Assembly: GCA_018466975.1 (NCBI GenBank)
Contig: JAENRS010000022.1
Coordinates: 124,001 to 188,000, forward strand
Reading direction: 5' to 3'
Origin: Sparassis latifolia
Lineage: Eukaryota > Basidiomycota > Agaricomycetes > Polyporales > Sparassidaceae
DNA length: 64,000 nt
Shown here: positions 58,451 to 64,000 of the stretch, in pieces
Position numbering within the stretch: position 1 is the first letter of the stretch
Layout: every line of letters begins with the position of its first letter
The notes under the pieces: generated by a model
Database searches by the model: none
What the model saw: only the letters and a program-made list of their open reading frames with translations
Told to the model about the DNA's origin: nothing
Program-made: the position numbers and the translations under genes

Positions 58451-60256
58451 TCAGTCTTCCTGTCTAGCGGTGTAGTTGAAGACCAGGTAGAGGTTGGCAT
58501 TGAGGAACTTGGCCTTGATGATGAGCCAGAGCCAGAACATTGGTGTGGCATAAGTGATATCCGACGACTCCGTCTTGCCAGACCCGCCAGTAAGGAGGCC
58601 ACCGAATTCGCCAGTGCCGGAGGCAATCATCGATCCGGAGTCTCCGCTCCTGGAGAACGCGCCTGAGTCGTATGGGAGGATTGCCCATTCAATCGAGTCC
58701 CGGTGAGTCTGGTTGGCGAAGTACTCGCGCGCACAGGAGAAGAATCCAGTGGCACGACCAATCGTGGTGAGAGTGGTTAGGCCGCGCTTGATGACGTAGA
58801 GGCAGTTTTCGCCGTCGTGGTCCTTCGTGTCGGGATGCCGCATGCGATCCTCGGCGAGAATGCCCCTGAGCTCGAGGAGGCGTTCGGCTGGGTACTCGAA
58901 GCCGGACTGCGCGTCCGTGCGAGGATACATCTTGTTTACGAACTTGGCGGCCTCGATCTCCGTCCCTGAATATAAACAGTTAATTCAGACGCCTTTAGTG
59001 AAAAAGATCAGCATGCACCTAAGTCAATAACGCTCCCCTTAAAGTTAGGCAAAAACCTGGCCTTATCGAGCTTGACGACGCAAACGTCCTTGGTGAAGCC
59101 ATGCGGAGCGGTACCGATAGTGATAGCAGGCGACCAGACAACGTGACCGACCACACGCTGGCTCGGCTTACCGAAGTCCTTCTTCGTCTTCTCGTAGAGC
59201 TTCTGAAGCTCGTTGATCGCGTCGGTCGTCTCCTCCAGCAGCTCCCGAGTCTTCTCCAGCTCCTTCTTCGCCTTCTTAGCAGCAGGGGTATCGCCCTCCG
59301 CCCTCCCCTCCAACCTCCCGATCGACTCCCTGCGGATCTCCGTCGCAGTGCTAAGGTTTCCGATCTGGATCTGGACGGACTTGAGGTAGTCCTCCCACGC
59401 CTTGGTGCCCATGAGGAGGACTTTCTTACGAGGCCCGCTGGGGTTGTAGGTGTAGTCGGAATTGTCCTCATCTGCCGGGAAGAGAACGTGGCGAGCCGTA
59501 ACGCCGTAGAGGTCGTCGCCGTCATTGAAGTAGAAGCCCATAGTGCCCTGGAGGTGGGGCGTCTTCGCGGCAGCCATAGGAAGTCCAAGCGCAGTAGTGA
59601 GAGGATCAATGACGTGTCTGGTTGCATCCAGGTCCGAGGCAGGTTCGTAGAGCTCTGCACTAGCTGAACGCCTGAACACCGATTCCCGGAATTCGATGTC
59701 GACGGCTGTAATGTCCTCGTCCTCGAGGAGTGCGAGTATGGCGTTGGCTGAGTTGAACGCATCCTCACCGGCGGGACTATCGGGAAGAACGCCGACCCAG
59801 ATCACGACGGGACTGATAACAGCAGGCATTTGTTGGTTCGGGATCGGGACCGTGCGGAAACGGACGAGGTCGATGGTCGAAAAGCGGACCTGCTGCTTGT
59901 CGAGAAGGTCACGAACCTTGGGACGGACATCCTCCCACTTGTCGCCAAGCTTATGGTCGTAGACTGGATAGAGGTGCTTCAAGCGACGATACGCCTCTGG
60001 TCCCTTGGGCATGACGAAGGGATCCTTCGACGTGCGGTAGACCAGCTTGGGGGGGGGAACGGGAGATCCCCGCATAGTAGAGGGTGGCCTCGACCTTGGA
60101 GATAACGTGGGGAGGGGAGCCAGAAGAGACGCTCGAGGCGTATTCGTCATCGAGACTGAGGTCGGAGAAGTCCGTGTCGGTGGGGGAGCTGGTAGGGCCC
60201 TGGCTGTTCTGCCTGGCTAGGGTGATACACTCTTCGAGGAATGCCGAAGAAATCAC
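58451..60256 (-). CDS. Trypsin-fold serine-protease-like protein with coiled-coil insertion; apparent 1-nt frameshift
   Basis: About 585 residues in two main exons (60256 to about 59023, then about 58966 to 58451; junction IDLG/TEIEAAKF). Chymotrypsin-type motifs are in order: His in YGVTARHVLFP, a candidate Asp in DVCVVKLD, Ser in SGDSGSMIA (GDSGS for the usual GDSGG). Between His and Asp lies a charged coiled-coil-like insert of about 70 residues (AAKKAKKELEKTRELLEET). There is no signal peptide, so it is probably intracellular. The N-terminal frame (SSPTDTDFSDLSLDDEY ... TLYYAGISRSP) and the main frame (PPKLVYRTSKDPFVMPK) are out of phase and meet at a run of nine C (60049-60057 in plus view); eight would keep one frame. 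The start is uncertain: the upstream frame opens at GTG 60256, with no ATG at that point. Confidence 0.65.
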
Positions 60257-61010
60257 TAGACGAGTATACGAGCGGGTCAGTATAAAAGGATAGTAGTAAA
60301 ACGTTAAAGAACTCGCTTGTTCTAGTCGAATACAAAGCTGACATCAGGGGTCCTCAGGCTGTGGATTGCCACATCGTGATAAGCGCCTGACGGGCTTACC
60401 AAAAATGGTCATTGAACGAAAGTTTTGCGTCCTAATACTACCTCTCTCACGAATATGACAAATTCTGCCTGCAAATCAATGTCCGAAACGTGTTGGCCAA
60501 TCCGCAAGAAATGACGAAAGTCACGAGGAGATGGGTGTGGTCAAGCTCACAAATACAGTATTGCAGAGCACACAGCTTCCATTGATCGCTCTATCTGCGA
60601 GGTGCTGACGTAATAATTACGATCGATAGATCGCATGCCATGGCTTTGCTCAACTTGTGCTCCCCAAATTTTCTGAATCCTCATTCCACCAATAAATTTG
60701 ATCGGATTCATGTCCATTGTACATCCCAAGTACTGTCTTGTGGGCACCCGAAAATTGTATATTTTTAGCGGTTTTCCTGACTCTTGACCAACGCCCGGAT
60801 TATGCTGACAACTCGACGTTGCCGGAATGCGCTCACCCTTGCCGTATCAAAAGCGTCTGCGTCTACGAGCTTTATCTCAGACCTTCTCTTGACAGCACGT
60901 GGGCAATCCGTCAGGTCAGCCGGAAATGAGTCGCCGAAAGCTACGACACCCTGACTTGACCTTGACTGCTGAGCGCTGATTACTGAGGCCCTTCTCCCCC
61001 TTGCTCAGGA
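60257..61010. other. Divergent spacer; no gene seen
   Basis: Lies between two outward-transcribed genes and presumably contains both promoters. Short ORFs only. Confidence 0.4.
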
Positions 61011-63493
61011 ATGGCGAGAGTCATTCTGTCCAAGTCTCACGAGTATGCGGACGATGATCCTGGACTGTCTTTGGACTATTTCTGTCGAGATCTCGAGCTC
61101 TACTCCAGCCGCGGTAAACACAAACTCGTTCAAGTGGACCACTACAAGGAGAAAAGCAGATATAGTTAGCGATTGGCTCCTTCTGTCGTATACCTCTCAG
61201 GTGTGAATAGCGGTATTAACAATACTCCCCTCCAGATCACGAATTTCTCGTGTTCGAGATCACACACGGCAATTACAAGTCAGGTTCTGGAAAGGACAAT
61301 ATATATTTGCGCATGGAGCGACGCCCAAGCGGCCAAACCCCTCTACATACAGCAGGGAGCTTTCAGCGGGTAACAAACGATACCATCAAGCGTGTACGAC
61401 CCGATTTTGACTGGTCTCCATATTATCATCTCTTCACCGTCTCCCGCCATCCAGAGAAGGAGCTCTCGCTGTCAGACATCTGCAAGATGTACCAACCCAT
61501 CCGCATCATATCACCAACGTATGATCCAGTCTCGCACAACTGTTACTGGTTTTGCAACAAATTTCTGCAAAATCTCGCGGAGGAATTACAGGTCTCTGGA
61601 TGTCCAGGGAAAGATTACCGCTTGCGAAGCACCTTTGCTGTAGGATTTACTCGGGTGTACCCTAATCGGCTCGCTCGTTCAGCATTGTTTTCATTCGGCC
61701 CTGCTGAGGACGCGGGGGAGACATCTGGTGAATGCTGGTGTCTGCCGGTAATGATACCATGGCGGGCGAGTAAAGCAGTGAAACGTAAGGCAAGCGAAGG
61801 CGGAAGGTTCGTTTTCGCTTTCGCCTGCTATCCATCCACTGACATCCTATATATTCCAGTGCAGCACAAGTCGTCGAAAAGCCTTCTGATGGGCTTATTA
61901 GTAAACTTCCTGCTCAGAGCCTTCCCCGAATTGTAGCAGGGCCATCACAGGAGAAGTATCCGATAAACTACGACTCTGCTCCGGATATTACTGCCGAGAG
62001 AGAAAATGTGACTCCCAATCAGAGGACGGTCTGGGAACTAGACGAGACTCGTTTGATGACCCTCGAGGATGTCCTGCAGCAGAAAGTTTGTATTTGGTCT
62101 CATTAGTCGTATGTACTCCTGGTCCACTTACCAAATTGTGCAGATTTCTTGGCAACCTGAGGCTGTTGAAGCCGTCGCCCATGCAATCACAGTTTCAACA
62201 GCCAAAAAGAAGACGAACAGGCCCATAGCATCACTAATATTTGCTGGACCAGCAGGTCGTCAACAAAGGGATGTCGCTGAAGCAGTGAGTACTTATTTGG
62301 ACGTCATCTTTCAGCTTATTGATGTCATCTTGCAGCTTGCACAGGAACTCTTCGGTAATTGCTCCCTCATCATAGAAATCCTGAAGATCAAATCCTCATA
62401 CTTCGGCGACGAGGTGTGGTTTTCGGTCAGTTTAATCGCGCCAGAAGATCATTACTGGGTAAATTAGACTGAACGGCCATGTTCCACGTATCAGACTGGT
62501 TGTTACCCTCGCAGAGAAAGCCACTTCCACTATGATTCTTTCGGTGGGGAACAGCTCCTGCAGTTTGTCAACCAAAACCCCCGCTGCTGTATCCTGGTCA
62601 CAGAGAGGCGCGTTACAGTTCACACTTCTGGGCGCTCCGATAGCTGACATCTGCGTGTAGAATCGAAAACATCCCGCCCAAGATCTTGGAGGTATTTCTA
62701 CGAATCCTAGACCAGAGCCAAATTCATGATCAAGATAGAGTTGTGGATTTTCGGTACGCATTTTATGCTCCAGCTGTACACCATGCTATTCCCGCTGAAA
62801 CGATCGTTGGATGGTATCCATCGACGATGTTCCACCAGCGAAACAGTTTTGATCCTGAGCACCGGTGTGGCAGATCGATTTCTGGAGTCCCAAGTGGGTG
62901 AGATCCCGGAGGAGAAGCGTCGCAAAATTGACGAGACAATTCGATGCGAACTTGAGAAGATTATTCAGGCCAAGCTCGATGGATCTTCTCCCTCTTTCCT
63001 CGACTGGTTCAGTCGTTTCACAATTGCTCCATTCGTACGTATGGTGATAAGGGATACGATACCGCGGGCTGATGCGTCATGCATACAGCGCGCCTTATGG
63101 GATCCGGAAGCGAAGAAAGAAATAATCCAGAAGGAAGTGCAAGACCTGCAGCTCTGCACAGACGTCTCTATCCACGTCAACGTGAAGGCTGAGAAGTGGC
63201 TTATGAAGCGGGGGGTTGACTTCGAGCATGGCGCAAATCTAGCGTCCGAGCTGATGTCCCAGAGGCTACTACACCGCATAAATGAAGGGGACGTCAGGAG
63301 GGGAGACCGGGTCGAGTTCCGGATGAACGCAAGGTCAAACGCTCTCAGATGTGTTGTGCCGACTGACGATTTTTGGTCCCGCTTCCTTCCTACACTATCC
63401 CCCACTGACGACGCCAGAGAATTTAACTTTACATCTACTGCTGGTCCAGTTTTTCCCACGGAGGAGTATATGACGGAAATGGTTTCTGCGTAA
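61011..63493 (+). CDS. LRAT/NlpC-like domain fused to a degenerate Clp/Hsp100 AAA+ module
   Basis: Exons: 61011-61164, 61236-61784, 61865-62085, 62144-62284, 62345-62413 (possibly extending to about 62459), then about 62496-62600, 62659-62750 and a last exon from about 62838 to the stop at 63493. The N-terminal part has His in NHEFLVFEITHGNY and Cys in SHNCYWFCNKFLQNL, the order and NC-aromatic context of LRAT/permuted NlpC-P60 cysteine hydrolases. The C-terminal part aligns along the ClpB second AAA+ domain: WQPEAVEAVAHAI, NRPIASLIFAGPAGRQQRD (no GKT), GGEQLLQFVNQNPRCCILVT (Walker B without DE), FLRILDQSQIHDQDRVVDFR, TVLILSTGVADRF (sensor Asn lost), WLMKRGVDFEHGANL (sensor-2 Arg lost). It is probably a non-hydrolysing Clp-like scaffold. 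The function is unknown. Fusion in one frame is supported by phase-compatible junctions. Confidence 0.72.
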
Positions 63494-63769
63494 GAGCGTG
63501 ATTAGTGCCATTCGACCGTTTGCCATTGACATTCACGTAGGTGCTAGCAGGTAACTACATCCCCACGAGGTTGTCCTTAGTGTTATGACTAATTGTATTT
63601 CTAACTGGTGAGGGGGAAGAGAACACGGCTGCTCTTGGAACTACTCTGGCGTACTTGCACACCACCGAAGATAACACAACACCTCTGAACATTTTAAATC
63701 ATATTCCAGGATTGCATTTACGTAGTACACAGGGATGACGTTGGCTTTATACACAATCGCATACAAATC
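63494..63769. other. Convergent 3' spacer; no gene seen
   Basis: Fewer than 300 bases between two convergent genes. Confidence 0.5.
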
Positions 63770-64000
63770 TCAGAGCAACAACCGAAGCAGCTCCACCCAC
63801 TTCTTCACAAAGCCTTCCACATCACCCACTGGCATGGCATAGATGTTTGCATCAGCGCTCACCGTGATCTTGCCGCCCCAGGAGAACGACCGGAAGAACC
63901 TACTCGCAGGTCACGTCAACAATACTTGCTTACTAGAAGAACAAAAACGTACGGGCCGGGATCGGTCTTGTTCAGGGACACGAAGAAATCGTCGATCTTT
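63770..64000 (-). CDS. Hypothetical protein, 3' end only (runs off the right edge)
   Basis: Two exons are visible on the minus strand. The edge exon reads KIDDFFVSLNKTDPGP and ends at a GTACGT donor. After an intron of about 55 bases the last exon reads FFRSFSWGGKITVSADANIY, AMPVGDVEGFVKKW, then VELLRLLL and a TGA at 63770-63772. The two exons join in phase at P/F. No domain is recognised in the visible 58 residues. Confidence 0.6.

Follow-up and report, generated by a model that had tools for sequence, protein, structure and literature searches.

The locus and its coding content

The window analysed here is a 64,000-nucleotide stretch of the genome of Sparassis latifolia (GenBank assembly GCA_018466975.1, contig JAENRS010000022.1, positions 124,001 to 188,000 of the forward strand; C14:124001-188000 in the contig numbering used below). 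Genome-wide statements refer to the 41.4 Mb in 22 contigs that were searched. Towards the end of the window lies a locus at which a cysteine-hydrolase-like N-terminal domain (N-domain) is joined with, or adjoins, a ClpB D2 module that has lost its motifs. Read as one spliced frame (61011-63493), it comprises nine exons specifying 653 residues (Table 1). Contig C15 carries a second copy, and the 4.1 kb that this has in common with the window are 98.6% identical; similarity between the two contigs, with gaps and one stretch at 84%, reaches the end of the compared C15 sequence, 75.8 kb along C14.

Two public S. latifolia proteins correspond to the two parts of this frame: P0001 (158 amino acids) to the N part and P0008 (356 amino acids) to the D2 part. 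Over the 355 residues compared, P0008 and the spliced model have 4 differences, and P0008 runs one residue further at its end; from the close of exon 3 onward the two share their exon boundaries. P0008 backs the GC-AG intron 62608-62660 (reading VTERIENIPP across the junction) as well as the intron 63035-63088; an alternative exon set, in which intron 5 has 81 bases and the last exon is undivided, was dropped in its favour. P0001 is 99% identical to the window protein over the aligned part (41% of the query), and another public S. latifolia protein, P0002, is 99% identical to a window protein over its aligned part. Part of exon 2 is missing from the P0001 model, which goes out of frame ahead of the Cys motif; it is probably mis-spliced, because its relatives keep the part of exon 2 that it drops.

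Table 1. Features of the locus (window positions)
Feature	Position	Strand	Content and basis
Exon 1	61011..61164	+	Start codon at 61011 and beginning of the N-domain; start identical in public P0001; spliced model
Exon 2, N-domain core	61236..61784	+	H53 at 61238-61240, E79 at 61316-61318, Y147 at 61520-61522, C154 at 61541-61543; paralogs, invariant columns and spacing
Intron 2	61785..61864	+	GTAAGG donor, branch-like CTGAC, two acceptor AGs 5 nucleotides apart
Exon 3, variable linker	61865..62085	+	Closes with ELDETRLMTLEDVLQQK, which aligns to where ClpB/Hsp104 D2 begins
Exon 4, D2	62144..62284	+	Former Walker A GPAGRQQR at 62246-62269
Exon 5, D2	62336..62425	+	Boundary the same in P0008
Exon 6	62495..62607	+	Lost pore loop SHFHYD; former Walker B VTE at 62597-62605 (TE at 62600-62605); followed by the GC-AG intron
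Exon 7, D2	62661..62753	+	Spliced model and D2 alignment
Exon 8	62839..63034	+	Former sensor 1 STG at 62858-62866; arginine-finger segment FLDW
Exon 9	63089..63493	+	D2 small-domain region, former sensor 2 GAN at 63230-63238, C-terminal tail, stop at 63491-63493
C15 copy, 98.6% identical	59876..64000	+ (C15: reverse strand)	Similarity extends beyond the window

A D2 module without its motor motifs

The downstream part of the locus is recognisably a ClpB D2. It matches Pfam AAA_2 (PF07724) with E 9.2e-13 and 49 bits (cut-off 27; P0008 scores 41.4 bits) and 48 distinct PDB sequences at E <=0.01, the best of the ClpB chains among them at E 8.4e-21. P0008 matches the NCBIfam models for ClpA (2.6e-24) and ClpB (3.5e-24), both far below the whole-protein cut-offs. 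The initial annotation, made from the letters of the window, had proposed a ClpB D2-like tail, and the similarity is indeed far above chance. It runs collinearly with ClpB/Hsp104 (Hsp100) through the large domain of D2 and continues, at a score below cut-off, into the small domain (ClpB_D2-small, PF10431: E 0.05, 14.1 bits, cut-off 21.9). Identity over shared columns is 36% with a paralog at C8:995k, 31% with a bacterial ClpB, 29% with a C5 paralog and 22% with a second C8 paralog (C8:2,630k), the two C8 pieces being incomplete.

Aligned with these four, the D2 of the locus has its motor motifs altered, as had been claimed for the ATPase motifs. GPAGRQQR replaces the Walker A sequence GPTGVGKT and departs from the pattern GxxGxGK[ST]; DE of Walker B has become TE, TSN of sensor 1 STG and GAR of sensor 2 GAN. 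The pore loop GYVGYD has become SHFHYD and the arginine-finger segment FLNR has become FLDW. The residues singled out in that annotation are present, including H53 in NHEFLVFEI and C154 in SHNCYWFC. The module further differs from ClpB/Hsp104 in its C-terminal tail and in standing without a D1 ring domain, none being found on C14 or C15 in a genome-wide D1 search. Separately, a remnant of a D2 tail, with stops in the surrounding frames, lies at C12:1,819,532-1,819,696 and resembles window positions 62969-63183 (81% over 62 bases, 72% over 111).

The C15 copy is open across all 653 codons with 12 residue differences, and neither copy contains a stop or frameshift. Under a neutral expectation that nonsynonymous changes (N, as against synonymous, S) make up ~0.75 of the total, the whole protein shows a deficit (N 12, S 13, P 0.0038), as does D2 over residues 299-638 (N 4, S 7, P 0.0084). 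Residues 1-234 (N 1, S 3, P 0.051), the linker at residues 235-298 (N 5, S 2, P 0.58) and residues 639-653 (N 2, S 1, P 0.55) complete the comparison. What this means operationally is that D2 appears constrained after losing its motifs, which argues against plain decay; it is support and not proof, because the test uses a single pair of copies with few changes and segment limits chosen by the analyst.

The N-domain family

Besides the C15 copy, the genome contains four N-domain loci: that of the window and three others, at C8:2,635k, C6:1,691k and C8:992k (43%, 39% and 32% identical to the window, respectively). A protein search found seven relatives among 3413 candidates: two from S. latifolia, one each from S. 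crispa and Imleria badia, and three clusters to which no organism is assigned. In an alignment of eight sequences, the seven others are 25 to 32% identical to the window, and yet H53, E54, F55, L56, E79, R80, D100, C154, Y155, F157 and L181 are invariant in all eight. The His always precedes the Cys, at a spacing of 90-104 residues, and the invariant Glu lies 19 to 26 residues past the His. A Tyr seven residues ahead of the Cys (Y147 in the window) occurs in seven of the eight, being absent from the S. crispa protein P0003. As a separate observation, the raw reading of the paralog at C6:1,691,005 shifts frame near HEFL, and P0003 is 90% identical to it over 180 residues.

This arrangement resembles that of the permuted papain/NlpC-P60 enzymes of the PPPDE/DeSI (C97, PF05903), LRAT (PF04970) and YaeF/YiiX (3kw0) types, in which His also precedes Cys, a Glu lies on the strand after the His, and the Cys stands at the start of a helix. 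E79 is the candidate for the polar third catalytic residue. The Tyr at Cys-7 is shared with all three PPPDE sequences aligned, and Y147 may be the catalytic signature tyrosine. PDB chains 3ebq and 2wp7 and the PPPDE-type protein that this genome encodes have the pattern Y-x-L-x3-N-C-x2-F in common; seven of the eight N-domain sequences have Q for its N, and the window has P for its L. The likeness has limits: His-Cys spacing is 68-70 residues in the two PPPDE sequences measured, and the N-domain family has motifs of its own, HEFL and ERR, that set it apart from the permuted papain/NlpC-P60 enzymes. A permuted enzyme is described as having the triad His49, Glu64 and Cys154 plus a signature tyrosine (PMC3142127). 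That tyrosine in BcPPNE is Tyr127, 27 residues before Cys154, so the His-Glu-Cys order is shared with the N-domain and the placing of the Tyr is not; PPPDE1, according to the same source, is without a polar third catalytic residue.

Searches further afield were negative or uninformative. No N-domain was confirmed among 69 pattern-matching stretches of bacterial and archaeal genomes or 91 of viral contigs, nor was any of 7 stretches found in viral contigs with a PPPDE query. The LRAT profile has no match in the S. latifolia genome, and a library of viral structures yields nothing below E 0.05 for the N-domain model. Among PDB sequences there was one unrelated weak match and nothing else, whether the query was the profile of the N-domain, a motif piece of 54 residues or a motif profile of 57 columns, and weak matches of the N-domain to DUF5078, DUF4649, LanKC, Cas6, DpdF and PDC-S11 were judged to be due to chance.

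Proximity to Clp genes

Genes with both D1 and D2 rings number four in the genome: one each on C5 and C11 (Hsp104-like and Hsp78-like, respectively, when read by eye), and two on C8, at 995-998k and 2,630-2,633k. The D1 search returns these same loci and a weak place on C5 (E 0.34). Two of the three N-domain genes outside C14/C15 lie close to the C8 pair, whose Clp paralogs are atypical. At C8:2,635k the two genes diverge, the N-domain gene starting at C8:2,634,954. Between them lie 0.8 to 1.5 kb, according to whether the Clp gene starts in the frame ending at C8:2,634,156, which matches no Pfam family, or in the one after it, which has a sub-threshold Clp_N match. At C8:992k both genes have the same orientation, and the N-domain gene begins 2.8 kb beyond the end of its Clp neighbour; kinase-like frames (named by eye) at C8:993,380-994,606 lie between them on the opposite strand. 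The C6 N-domain gene has no Clp nearby. Under uniform placement, the probability that two or more of three N-domain genes fall within 5 kb of a Clp gene is ~6e-6, a figure that tests linkage and not independent recurrence, because the 5 kb limit was chosen after the loci had been seen and the two C8 pairs may share one origin.

The two C8 motors differ in state. D2 motifs of the C8:995k Clp are intact, and the initial annotation had regarded homologs with intact motifs as a sign that the copy in the window is merely decayed; such a homolog exists, and the selection signal opposes mere decay. The divergent C8:2,630k Clp (C8:2,629,966-2,634,156) keeps both Walker A motifs, GDPGVGKT in D1 and GPSGSGKT in D2, and has HIHE at D2 Walker B and ITTSIG at sensor 1; it is perhaps an intermediate state of motor loss.

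The gene adjacent to the locus (window 59008-60216, minus strand) belongs to a large family, with 29 matching stretches genome-wide at E <=0.001, and reaches the cut-off of no Pfam family. It was considered as a third part of the system and rejected: all 29 stretches are remote from the N-domain loci on C8 and C6, and the least distant, at C8:2,677k, is ~41 kb off. On C15 its copy is in two pieces (query 1-58 at C15:311,248-311,421 and 54-343 at C15:325,706-326,575), as if ~14 kb had been inserted where similarity with the window ends, at 59876.

Interpretation and competing readings

The reading that we favour, tentatively and at a little under an even chance, is that the locus encodes a permuted-papain-like cysteine hydrolase domain and a motor-less D2 in one protein that docks the hydrolase on an Hsp100 ring or restrains it. 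Splicing to the second acceptor of intron 2 would make the two parts together. As an active thiol hydrolase, the N-domain would rely on H53, E79 and C154, along with Y147. Deprived of the usual ATP-binding and -hydrolysing residues and of the usual substrate-gripping loop, the dead D2 would dock the hydrolase onto an active Hsp100 ring or, as an inhibitory module, keep it in check. The C8:995k paralog, which this D2 resembles most, would be the most likely partner, and at the C8 loci hydrolase and motor would have stayed separate genes. A hydrolase working with Hsp100 rings would give a single account of fusion, closeness and motif loss.

What weighs against this reading concerns the join and the nature of the N-domain. 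Public annotation has two gene models, P0001 and P0008, in place of one. An intron 2 acceptor ending at 61859, the first AG past the branch-like CTGAC, gives an N-domain-only frame with its stop at 61934-61936; the acceptor ending at 61864 carries the frame into D2. There is a serious possibility, below an even chance, of two separate genes or one two-cistron message, with the N-domain ending at 61936 and D2 starting at ATG 62056 (residue 299), a linked pair without fusion. Multi-gene transcripts have been reported in mushroom fungi (PMC4503453), and at residue level the 64-codon linker is the most divergent segment (5 N, 2 S). On the other hand, space for a terminator and a promoter would be tight in the 119 bases from stop to ATG, the likeness to D2 starts 7 residues upstream of the annotated P0008 start, and P0001 is itself doubtful, since it has an intron that cuts out residues conserved in the family and changes the frame ahead of the Cys motif. 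The case for two genes with a stop near 61.94 kb, foreseen in the initial annotation as the alternative to its fusion, has that stop and two public models in its favour, which is model rather than transcript evidence; the fusion has the in-frame join at the second acceptor. From the sequence we lean to one fusion protein, perhaps with alternative splicing.

The N-domain might instead be a binding domain with structural His, Glu and Cys, which would make the protein a non-catalytic scaffold at both ends; this we consider somewhat unlikely. In its favour, no family in Pfam, NCBIfam or PADLOC accepts the N-domain, its relatives or a majority consensus. The LRAT profile (PF04970) has no match to the N-domain or its relatives at E up to 10 (HMMER filters drop most weak matches), the NlpC profile has none to the N-domain at cut-off, and Peptidase C97/PPPDE (PF05903) matches one of the eight members with E 0.085 and 13.1 bits against a cut-off of 29.2. 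The AlphaFold model of P0002 finds its best structural neighbour in human CLN5 (PDB 6r99; 145 aligned residues), a weak fold match; the ranking is by VIA-align, which re-ranks Foldseek hits, so that LRAT or PPPDE chains missing there exclude nothing. A second model (P0004, mean predicted local distance difference test score, pLDDT, 47) is too poor for use, and P0003 is without the Tyr. Against a merely structural role, His, Glu and Cys are invariant across eight sequences as divergent as these and stand in the order of the permuted papain enzymes. The LRAT/NlpC assignment made initially is therefore supported in part: residue order and one predicted structure are compatible with the papain/NlpC group, which is no proof of the fold, and no LRAT, NlpC or C97 profile reaches its cut-off.

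Finally, the locus could be a decaying pseudogene, a duplicated piece of D2 that has lost its motifs free of selection. The motifs are gone while canonical paralogs exist, C14 and C15 are without D1, one intron is of the GC-AG type, and a further D2-tail remnant lies on C12. We nonetheless regard decay as quite improbable: both copies are free of stops and frameshifts, a third sequence has the D2 part at full length as a public protein (P0008), and nonsynonymous changes are deficient in D2 and in the whole protein, with the limits stated above.

Implications

Hsp100 unfoldases feed serine proteases (ClpP) or cooperate with Hsp70, and pseudo-ATPase subunits are familiar from other AAA+ assemblies, where a dead module is retained in an AAA+ context. 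To our knowledge, a cysteine hydrolase as the genetic partner of an Hsp100 in a eukaryote would be new. Among the open-licence papers listed on fungal Hsp104/ClpB, Clp with LRAT or conflict systems, pseudo-AAA proteins and heterokaryon incompatibility, no such pairing is met, nor is a pseudo-ATPase subunit immediately linked or fused to a cysteine-hydrolase-like domain. The suggestion that the locus serves allorecognition or defence is unsupported, the PADLOC scan giving weak and unrelated matches. A broader proposal, which we hold to be rather unlikely as it stands, is that mushroom-forming fungi possess an undescribed Hsp100-coupled cysteine-hydrolase system, in which a permuted-papain-like enzyme would work with atypical two-ring Clp unfoldases, the genes being separate but close at the two C8 loci, and one branch would have fused the enzyme to a dead D2 scaffold. 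Docked on an Hsp100 ring or regulated by it, the hydrolase would then fill the place of bacterial ClpP.

The N-domain constitutes a small fungal family that Pfam scans leave unnamed. A D2 that is constrained after losing its motor motifs would be a clean test case for the reuse of the AAA+ fold as a docking part.
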